DNA of 64,000 nt, taken from positions 1-64,000 of the forward strand of contig JAPYUT010000005.1 of assembly GCA_029940475.1 (NCBI GenBank). The letters run 5' to 3'. How positions within the stretch are numbered: the first letter of the stretch is position 1; each line of letters begins with the position of its first letter. This DNA is from Verrucomicrobiales bacterium. Its GTDB lineage: Bacteria; Verrucomicrobiota; Verrucomicrobiia; Verrucomicrobiales; DEV007. Positions 29,837 through 37,797 of the stretch are shown one piece after another. Below the pieces are notes generated by a model. The model was not told the origin of the DNA and did no database searches. It was given only the letters and a program-made list of their open reading frames with translations. Position numbers and translations under genes: made by a program.

Positions 29837-30166
29837 ATGGCAGACGAAAAAATCGTTATCCTTAATTCCGAAAACTTCGAGGCCGAGGTCAAGAACAGTG
29901 ACCGGCCAGTGCTTGTTGACTTCTGGGCAGAGTGGTGCGGCCCATGCAAAATGCTCAGTCCGCTGCTTGATGAATTGGCCAATGAAAAGGGCGAGGCCGT
30001 CAAGATTACCAAGGTAAATATTGACGACAACCAGGAGCTGGCGGTTGAATTCGGCGTCAAGTCCATCCCAATGCTGTTGTTCTTCCAGGGCGGCGAAGTT
30101 AAAGATCAAATTGTTGGCGTTGCCGGTAAGGATGCAATTAATGCCAAGCTGGACGCGTTGCTATAA
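29837..30166 (+). CDS. trxA: Thioredoxin
   Basis: A 109-residue thioredoxin with the full redox motif WCGPCK (C34, C37), the 'VLVDFWAEWCGPC' strand and helix, the cis-Pro region 'KSIPMLLFFQGGEV' and a typical C-terminal helix. It reduces protein disulfides in the cytoplasm using thioredoxin reductase. It is followed after 70 nt by lpxC/fabZ on the same strand; cotranscription is possible. Confidence 0.96.
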   Translation: MADEKIVILNSENFEAEVKNSDRPVLVDFWAEWCGPCKMLSPLLDELANEKGEAVKITKVNIDDNQELAVEFGVKSIPMLLFFQGGEVKDQIVGVAGKDAINAKLDALL

Positions 30167-30236: not shown

Positions 30237-31550
30237 ATGAGCATTCCACCACAGCGCACACTTGCTGCCAGCGCATCTCTGGAGGGCACCTCGCTCCACA
30301 CGGGGGAAAAGGTCACCCTTACCATGAGTCCCGCGCCACCAAACAGCGGTATACTTTTTAGAAGAATTGACCTCGATGATCAACCGTTTATTCCGGCTGT
30401 TGTTGATAATGTGCAGCAGGTTGAACGCGCCACCACCATCGCTGTCGGGTCAGTAAAAGTTCACACCGTCGAGCATGTCATCAGTGCGCTCACCGGCATG
30501 GGGGTAGACAATGCCATTATCGAAATGAACGCCAATGAGCCGCCAATCGGTGACGGCTCAGCTGCTCCTTACGTTGAATGTATCAAGACCGCCGGCATCA
30601 CGGACCAAGATCAACTGTGTAGTGTTTTCGAGGTGCGCGATCCCATTCATATCGAAGTCGGCGACGGCTCTCTCATCACCATCGTTCCTGACAAAGCGTT
30701 TCGTATATCCTGTACGCAAGTGGGACCCGAGGGAAAAATGACACAGTATTTCTCCACTGAAGTTACTCCCGAAATCTATGAGAAGGAAATTGCCCCGGCC
30801 CGCACATTTGTCTTTTATGAAGACGTTGAGCCGCTCCTGGAAAAGGGCCTCATTAAAGGCGGGTCGCTTGAAAATGCAGTGGTTGTCAGGGATAATTCAG
30901 TGCTCAGTAAAGAACCCTTGCGTTTCGAGAATGAATTTGCACGGCACAAGGTTCTTGACGTGATCGGTGACCTGATGCTGGCCGGAAAGCGCATCATGGG
31001 ACATGTTATCTGTGTCAAGCCCGGTCACGGGCCAAACACACAAATGGCGCGCCGGCTTAAAAAGGCGTTCGGCGAAATCATTTCCATGACGCCGCCAGTG
31101 AACATCCCCACCGGGGAAGGTGCCCTGGACATCAACGAAGTGATGCAGATCCTTCCGCATCGCTACCCCTTCCTGTTGCTTGATCGCATCATTAAATTTG
31201 AAGGGGACAACAAGTGCACGGGTATAAAGTCGGTCACTATTAACGAGCCCTTCTTCCAGGGACATTTCCCCGATCATCCTGTGATGCCGGGTGTATTACA
31301 ACTTGAGGCAATGGCACAACTCTCCAGTATCATGCTGCTGCGCAAACCTGAAAATCAAGGCAAGATGGGATATTTTATGAGTGCTGACAGGGTCAAGTTT
31401 CGCAAGCCCGTCGTCCCCGGAGACACTCTTTTTATAGAGGGCGAGGCTATCAAAATCAAAAGCAGCGTCGGTCATGCAAGATGCCGCTGTATTGTCAACG
31501 GCCAGATCGTTTCTGAGGCTGAACTTAAGTTCAGCCTCTTGTCGCGGTAA
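30237..31550 (+). CDS. lpxC/fabZ: Bifunctional LpxC/FabZ: lipid A deacetylase and 3-hydroxyacyl-ACP dehydratase
   Basis: The 437-residue fusion joins two enzymes that share a 3-hydroxyacyl-ACP-linked pathway. Residues 1-290 are LpxC, which deacetylates UDP-3-O-acyl-GlcNAc: zinc ligands H80 ('HTVEH'), H237 and D241 ('HKVLDVIGDL'), and H264 in 'KPGHGPN'. Residues about 298-437 are FabZ, which dehydrates 3-hydroxyacyl-ACP: H308 in 'LPHRYPFLLLDRI' and E357 in 'GVLQLEAMAQ'. The fusion is known from Bacteroidota and PVC bacteria. lpxA follows. Essential for LPS and fatty acid synthesis in such cells. Confidence 0.97.
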   Translation: MSIPPQRTLAASASLEGTSLHTGEKVTLTMSPAPPNSGILFRRIDLDDQPFIPAVVDNVQQVERATTIAVGSVKVHTVEHVISALTGMGVDNAIIEMNANEPPIGDGSAAPYVECIKTAGITDQDQLCSVFEVRDPIHIEVGDGSLITIVPDKAFRISCTQVGPEGKMTQYFSTEVTPEIYEKEIAPARTFVFYEDVEPLLEKGLIKGGSLENAVVVRDNSVLSKEPLRFENEFARHKVLDVIGDLMLAGKRIMGHVICVKPGHGPNTQMARRLKKAFGEIISMTPPVNIPTGEGALDINEVMQILPHRYPFLLLDRIIKFEGDNKCTGIKSVTINEPFFQGHFPDHPVMPGVLQLEAMAQLSSIMLLRKPENQGKMGYFMSADRVKFRKPVVPGDTLFIEGEAIKIKSSVGHARCRCIVNGQIVSEAELKFSLLSR

Positions 31551-36743: not shown

Positions 36744-36792
36744 AGCCTTTCTGTGCGGGGTAGCAGTAACCCCGGGCAAGAAAGGGTTGAAA

Positions 36793-37797
36793 GTGAGCTC
36801 AAAGAATAAATCATTTCATCAGAGCCGGGGAAGAGCCGCGGTTATGTTTGCGGTGATTCCACTGGCCTGTATTGCGCACATTATCTGGGGGCTTTTTTTC
36901 GGCGGGCGGCAACAATGGCCCGTTGTGGAAATGGTTTTGATTACAGCTGCCGTGATTTCACTGTTGCGCATGCTGGTGGTCAAGCCCTTTCGGTATGGAT
37001 TACTAACGCTTAATATTTTTGCCTGGTTGCTTGCGGGCGGCTTCCTGTGGTGGACCCAGGTTTATTCATCTTACCCGAAAATGAACGCGAAGATAAGTGT
37101 GGGGGAAAATATTGCGGGGCGGTTTTCCTCTTTCGAAACAACGGCAGTATCGGGGCTTCGTGCCGCGCCGGTTAACGATGGCGACAGGCCCTCAGAGATG
37201 GCACCCGCGCCGATCAAAATTGAGCTGGCGCTCCCGGAGGAGGAGGAAATATTTCTGGACGCCTCCGGTAAATCTTTTCACTTAACACCCGCACCCGTCA
37301 CGGCACAGGAAAAAATAACAAGCACCGTCCCGGCAAGGAGTGGCGGCGCGATAGCGCTTAGACAGGCTCCATTTTTGGATCAATCAGCTGCGACGCTGGT
37401 GGTGTTTTTTCGTGGGTGGTGGTGACCCTTTTGCATAGGGGAGCTGGTGCAGCTGCAAAAGGAATATTCAAAATTCAAGGATGCTGGAATTGAAATTTTG
37501 GCGATCTCCGCCGGCTCTCCCGAGGATGCCCAAAAAGCAAAAAAATTATCCGGCGCCGAGTTTGAAGTGCGGGTCGATGAATCGGGGCAGATAATGGATC
37601 AGTTTGGACTGCGCGATATTGCCGGTAATCCATTTACCGGAGAAGATGTTGCCCGTGCTGCGACATTGCTTGTTTCCCGGCAAGGCAAGCTACTTTGGGC
37701 AAAATACGCAGAGAATTATCGCGTGAGAATGAAAGTTGATCATCTCTTGTTGCTGGCGCAGAACGCCTTGCTGGCGCACCGCCAATCCGACCGATAA
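36793..37797 (+). CDS. Membrane-anchored peroxiredoxin-like selenoprotein (UxxC)
   Basis: One open frame of 334 residues if TGA at 37423-37425 is read as selenocysteine (U211). Three N-terminal membrane segments (about 16-37, 44-63 and 67-88) are followed by a periplasmic-facing linker and a redoxin domain. The sequence around the TGA reads 'LVVFFRGWW-U-PFC', where AhpC/TSA-like relatives have 'RGWWCP(F/Y)C', so Sec replaces the first active-site Cys and C214 is the partner. Downstream, 'ENYRVRMKVDHLL' is the usual tail of this family. Codon frame is unbroken on both sides. GTG at 36793 has AAAGGG six bases upstream; an ATG at 36718 would overlap the HAD gene. It is a putative periplasmic thiol peroxidase or reductase. 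It is convergent with mnmG; no sel genes are in the window. Confidence 0.83.
37423..37425 (+). other. Recoded TGA (selenocysteine codon)
   Basis: The only stop codon in the 334-codon frame sits exactly at the first redox cysteine position, with a SECIS-like hairpin starting two bases later. Sense-codon mutation or sequencing error (TGC or TGT to TGA) is the alternative. Confidence 0.8.
37427..37462 (+). promoter_or_regulatory. Candidate bacterial SECIS element
   Basis: CCTTTTGCA (37427-37435) and TGCAAAAGG (37454-37462) form a perfect 9-bp lower stem. Inside it, GCTG (37443-37446) and CAGC (37450-37453) pair around a GTG loop (37447-37449), with a 7-nt bulge on the 5' side only. The apical loop starts 21 nt after the TGA and begins with G, within the range for bacterial SECIS hairpins that bind SelB. 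Confidence 0.75.

Follow-up and report, generated by a model that had tools for sequence, protein, structure and literature searches.

The window analysed here is a 64,000-nucleotide stretch of contig JAPYUT010000005.1, from a Verrucomicrobiales genome. On its forward strand lies a gene for a predicted 334-residue selenoprotein (Table 1), which a mechanical ORF list splits in two. When the frame is read directly, the sole stop codon between GTG 36793 and TAA 37795-37797 is a TGA, and the sequence-only reading, which had described two ORFs in one frame with the TGA alone between them, was thus correct in its coordinates. For the C-terminal ORF, which the list begins at GTG 37447, there is no separate N-terminus tied to a start codon. 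In the joined translation the residues around position 211 read VVFFRGWW-U-PFCIGELVQLQ, including the RGWW-U-PFC motif reported earlier. The downstream part had been described as a continuation of the redoxin fold, and this is borne out by Pfam matches that run through the TGA: the joined protein scores 61.9 bits with PF00578 (AhpC-TSA; cut-off 26) over residues 180-309 and 40.3 bits with PF08534 (Redoxin), both matches being continuous. The putative selenocysteine (Sec) and its partner form a UxxC motif, U211-P-F-C214, with both ends invariant in the family.

Table 1. Features of the selenoprotein locus in the window
Feature	Position	Strand	Basis
Probable ribosome binding site, AAAGGG, 6 nt before GTG 36793	36781..36786	+	read directly; inference
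Selenoprotein gene, 334 aa: three membrane segments, linker, AhpC/TSA redoxin domain with UxxC	36793..37797	+	
Predicted membrane segment 1, residues 18-36	36844..36900	+	hydropathy; helical in model
Predicted membrane segment 2, residues 45-63	36925..36981	+	hydropathy; helical in model
Predicted membrane segment 3, residues 70-88	37000..37056	+	hydropathy; helical in model
Linker, residues 97-177	37081..37323	+	mostly low model confidence; 103-124 modelled as helix
Redoxin domain, residues 178-334, peroxiredoxin/ResA fold	37324..37794	+	Pfam, alignment, model, Foldseek
TGA read as Sec, residue 211 of 334	37423..37425	+	readthrough, conservation in homologues
SECIS-like hairpin, apical loop 21 nt after UGA	37427..37462	+	minimum energy -14.3 kcal/mol
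SECIS-like lower stem	37427..37435 with 37454..37462	+	predicted fold
Partner Cys214 of UxxC, invariant	37432..37434	+	alignment of 29 sequences
Upper stem with comparative support, nt 16-21 with 25-30 after UGA	37441..37455	+	codon covariation
SECIS-like upper stem	37443..37446 with 37450..37453	+	predicted fold
Apical loop GUG	37447..37449	+	predicted fold

The host genome (3.97 Mb in 130 contigs, 92% complete) contains selA, selB, selC and selD, each above its cut-off. The first, second and fourth score 483, 328 and 361 bits, respectively, against curated profiles, and selC, a tRNA-SeC with the anticodon TCA (UCA), scores 62.7 bits for a gathering score of 47. The selD gene (L018, G000:C79:2856-3782, + strand) itself carries a TGA in the context LSKTCG-U-AAK, whose CG-U-AAK portion is the known Sec site of SelD. 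Because selD also holds a TGA, two or more UGA codons of this genome are probably translated as Sec.

Homologues with one in-frame TGA are present in 28 of the 289 genomes of the same order, that of the window included. Their translations place the TGA at the identical site, RG[WHYF]W-U-P[FYW]C, and among all 289 genomes a single homologue (L031, genome G110) has a Cys there (WCPYC); the column in which relatives had been expected to show Cys or Sec therefore holds 28 U and one C. Alignment of these 29 sequences (A1) revealed the invariant residues F205, R207, G208, W210, U/C211, P212, C214, L218, G278, G283 and R310. With Cys forms almost absent from the order, the family appears to be used nearly always in its Sec form. 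All 28 genomes with a TGA-containing homologue possess selA, versus 96 of the 289 genomes overall (hypergeometric p = 1.9e-15, with genomes treated as independent and kinship ignored). A class-wide profile search yielded five further matches, every one with a TGA and one with a TAG as well. In one homologue outside the order (L171, G581:C73), one TGA and one TAG fall within the matched frame.

Since the diversity of alignment A2 ruled out scanning by back-translation, we used in its place the DNA pattern MGNGGNNNNTGGTGACCNTWYTGYNTNNNNGANYT, which corresponds to R-G-x-W-U-P-[FY]-C-[hydrophobic]-x-[ED]-L with U as TGA. At least 119 matches to RGxW-TGA-P[FY]C (L051-L169) were found among genome contigs, for approximately 0.2 expected by chance from base frequencies. 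They span about ten phyla, with representatives in Verrucomicrobiota, Planctomycetota, Gamma-, Alpha- and Deltaproteobacteria (Pseudomonadota), Myxococcota, Rokubacteria, Methylomirabilota, Acidobacteriota, Neomarinimicrobiota and Spirochaeta. The TGA is kept over all this range, and a sequencing error at 37423 is therefore excluded. The two ORFs in the mechanical list, and the single base that separates TGA from TGC or TGT, could suggest two genes or a pseudogene, i.e. a membrane protein ending at the TGA followed by a redoxin fragment, with the TGA as a nonsense mutation or an error in a Cys codon, but this reading, to which we give practically no credence, is refuted by the conservation of the TGA in the 28 homologues of the order and the pattern matches, and also has against it the conservation of both halves across the TGA, the synonymous covarying stem that follows it (see below) and the occurrence of selA in all 28 genomes.

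Decoding of the TGA as Trp or Cys, through a changed code or a suppressor, would equally generate the full protein. However, other long genes nearby read well under table 11, tRNA-SeC, SelA, SelB and a Sec-type SelD are all present, and the TGA sits at the position of the redox Cys with a SECIS-like stem alongside, which leaves this explanation with a negligible probability.

Downstream of the UGA, the mRNA of the window gene has the potential to fold CCUUUUGCA...UGCAAAAGG around the upper stem with its GUG loop. The bacterial SECIS model, as described in a recent review, calls for a G in the first two positions of a loop of 3-9 nt, located 16-37 nt from the UGA, and an energy of at most -7.5 (PMC13188914); the window hairpin has these properties, as its loop, distance and energy indicate (Table 1). 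An Rfam scan of the region gave no match, and, judged by energy, the window hairpin by itself does not stand out from shuffled sequences (z = -0.37). With a generic SECIS energy score, the relatives taken together do only slightly better than synonymous nulls (mean z = -0.66). Since the energy of the single hairpin is not significant and the generic score is weak, we relied on codon covariation specific to the stem.

In the group to which the window protein belongs (17 sequences, E-L-[VG]-[QK]-[LF]), the stem formed by nucleotides 16-21 and 25-30 is paired in 90 of 102 cells, where permuting codons within amino-acid classes gives 83.9 +/- 1.2 (none of 5,000 permutations as high, kinship ignored). 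Compensatory changes include CTG..CAG to TTG..CAA in three relatives (C-G to U-A) and GAG..CTC to GAA..TTC in one other (G-C to A-U). Sliding the stem partner by 1-3 columns reduces pairing to 20-46%, versus 88% in register. The signal is also found in the LQGLQ group (30 sequences), where CTGCA[A/G]-GGN-[T/C]TGCAG forms Watson-Crick pairs in every one of 180 cells. In this group, Gln CAA occurs with Leu TTG in 24 cases and CAG with CTG in 6, with no mixed pairs (Fisher p = 1.7e-6); both codon changes are synonymous, the covariation is backed on a more varied set as well, and 0 of 5,000 codon permutations within amino-acid classes, again with kinship ignored, reach the observed pairing. In two further groups, different stems occupy almost the same position (68/68 and 101/105 pairs), and in the Cys homologue L031 the hairpin is gone (-1.2 kcal/mol). 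The synonymous covariation suggests that constraint on the RNA accounts for at least part of the conservation of the peptide after Sec. Together with the co-occurrence of selA, the covarying stem adds support to the initial proposal of a probable UxxC selenoprotein. In the group of L054 (30 proteobacterial or myxococcal loci, ELRRW), a candidate apical loop (AGUU[G/A]) follows the UGA at a distance of only 16 nt, the shortest that the published SECIS model allows.

The three N-terminal membrane segments noted in the sequence-only reading were recovered by hydropathy analysis. Pooling the pattern matches with the homologues of the order and removing duplicates gave 126 distinct Sec sequences, of which 98 have three such segments, 6 have two, 3 have one and 19 have none. 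In an AlphaFold2 model based on 48 alignment rows, the redoxin domain has pLDDT values mostly >90 from about residue 200, and the N-terminal segments are helical with moderate confidence (pLDDT about 60-77). Much of the linker is an insert that the window protein shares with its closest relatives, L022 and L023, and with no others. The best solved matches of the model in Foldseek are the Bcp/PrxQ and AhpE peroxiredoxins (Bcp4 3hjp, 5enu, and AhpE 1xvw).

A maximum-likelihood tree of 125 rows places the window protein among 16 membrane-type sequences from Verrucomicrobiota that form one clade (support 100/100). The Cys form L031 is nested inside this Sec clade, so a change from Sec to Cys is likely to have occurred there. 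Soluble relatives make up 22 of the 125 rows, 17 of them in one clade. A mostly soluble sister form with E-L-x-A-L after Sec and a stem of its own (GAGC/GCUC) occurs in Planctomycetota, Gammaproteobacteria and Desulfobacterota (L056, L065, L071, L081, L082, L086, L088, L100, L104, L113, L115-L117, L136, L145, L158 and L167). One of these loci, L136, comes from a record labelled as a Klebsiella pneumoniae MAG but holds the gammaproteobacterial soluble form, and this MAG is probably mislabelled.

Given these soluble relatives, and as segment 1 could be a signal, the window protein might be a soluble-type Prx-like selenoprotein exported after cleavage of its hydrophobic N-terminal part rather than anchored. 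We regard this as very improbable, as a signal peptide needs one hydrophobic segment and three are present in 98 of the 126 sequences over about ten phyla. For a membrane-anchored protein, the orientation has to be considered. The window protein has four K/R residues ahead of segment 1, a single one in the loop that joins it to segment 2, and further K/R in loop 2, a pattern that favours a cytoplasmic N-terminus and a periplasmic redoxin domain. In the 98 three-segment relatives, loop 2 is richer in K+R than loop 1 in 62 and poorer in 27. Because this positive-inside signal is weak across the family, we consider the periplasmic location only fairly probable. In the opposite orientation (N-out, C-in), the redoxin domain would be cytoplasmic and receive electrons directly from cytoplasmic thioredoxin. 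The weakness of the signal and a TrxA-like gene in the window (29837-30166), of a kind present in most bacteria, are in line with such an arrangement, but both the K/R distribution of the window protein and the balance of loop 2 over loop 1 in its relatives point the other way; we deem it rather unlikely.

The sequence-only reading knew of no membrane-anchored redoxin among described selenoproteins. We likewise found the three-segment form described nowhere in the sources compared, but soluble UxxC Prx-like selenoproteins have been known since the 2000s. Prx homologues carrying a thioredoxin-like UxxC were described in the Sargasso Sea set (PMC1088965), 225 Prx-like 1 and 68 Prx-like 3 sequences were counted in the GOS set (PMC2398784), and a 2026 review tabulates Prx-like thiol:disulfide oxidoreductase selenoproteins with PF00578 and UxxC/UxxU motifs (PMC13188914). 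By description, these bacterial proteins, with WP_010940744.1 as representative, share with ours the AhpC-TSA fold, a Sec first in UxxC and a SECIS just after the UGA; ours would be set apart by the three N-terminal membrane helices found in most relatives here. The main text of this literature makes no mention of a membrane anchor for the UxxC Prx-like family, and the membrane-anchored form is absent from the portions of the curated selenoprotein catalogues examined; single membrane-type members may be hidden in published sets. The same review lists a Redoxin family selenoprotein, HEU0032618.1 (PF08534, UxxC; PMC13188914), which by this brief description shares the redoxin fold and the UxxC motif and may belong to the same family as the window protein.

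None of the NCBIfam models (June 2026) scores above its cut-off with the window protein. Every one of the 29 sequences in alignment A1 matches the SelL-related redox protein model NF040769 in the same redoxin-fold region (best 1.9e-13), but the window protein scores 37.6 bits for a cut-off of 120, over residues 198-300 only. ResA gives the best sequence match, its CxxC aligning with U211-C214 so that Sec211 falls on the first active-site Cys; the score with its model (NF002854) is 36.9 bits for a cut-off of 170. ResA/TlpA thiol-disulfide oxidoreductases are membrane-anchored proteins with an extracytoplasmic CxxC thioredoxin fold, and ResA has one membrane segment, whereas the window protein has Sec in place of Cys and three segments. 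The Bcp/PrxQ and AhpE peroxiredoxins are the closest in solved fold but differ in having a TxxC motif, with Thr three residues before the peroxidatic Cys. In our reading, Sec211 would take the place of this Thr, and Cys214 would lie near that of the peroxidatic Cys. The modelled protein has the peroxiredoxin fold and lacks the TxxC/TxxU signature.

No conserved redox neighbour gene pointing to a substrate was found near the relatives of the window protein. The only recurring neighbours, named by reading of their sequences, are mnmG downstream (convergent, 9 loci) and a gene for a HAD-family phosphatase upstream (5 loci), neither of them redox related. In five Planctomycetota loci (L139, L057, L078, L166 and L168), a gene that reads as MOSC-like precedes the redoxin selenoprotein gene on its strand by 11-65 nt, and the two possibly form an operon. 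Elsewhere in the window, positions 30237-31550 read as a fused LpxC-FabZ gene of 437 aa.

Taken as a whole, the comparative sequence data make it very probable that the locus encodes a single 334-residue Sec protein with a three-helix anchor and a UxxC redoxin domain. The UGA at 37423 would be read as Sec by SelB and tRNA-Sec, as directed by a SECIS hairpin within the next 37 bases. The product would be anchored by its three N-terminal helices, with the redoxin domain probably on the periplasmic side, and the best reading is that of a predicted membrane-tethered, probably periplasmic, Sec-containing thiol oxidoreductase or peroxidase. The peroxiredoxin fold, together with the CxxC motifs of thioredoxins and ResA, leads us to infer that Sec211 would most likely attack, at the membrane, a substrate in oxidised form, be it a disulfide, a sulfenic acid or a hydroperoxide, that Cys214 would resolve the intermediate as a selenenyl-sulfide and that an external thiol donor would re-reduce the enzyme.

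More speculatively, these widespread, almost always Sec-dependent membrane-tethered redoxins might have their substrate in or at the membrane, such as lipid hydroperoxides of its periplasmic face, with the three-helix part serving, beyond anchoring, as the site for substrate or electron donor. We hold this proposal to be distinctly improbable; if true, the family would be a functional counterpart in bacteria of membrane-protecting selenoenzymes such as GPX4. The family, present in about ten phyla, is easily overlooked because ordinary ORF calling splits the gene. It would add to the redoxin selenoproteins a membrane-bound class that uses Sec almost to the exclusion of Cys, and it offers a clear example of a peptide following Sec (ELQGLQ, ELVQL) that appears to be kept at least partly by an RNA hairpin. 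It also opens to testing the question of why some bacteria need selenium at the membrane.
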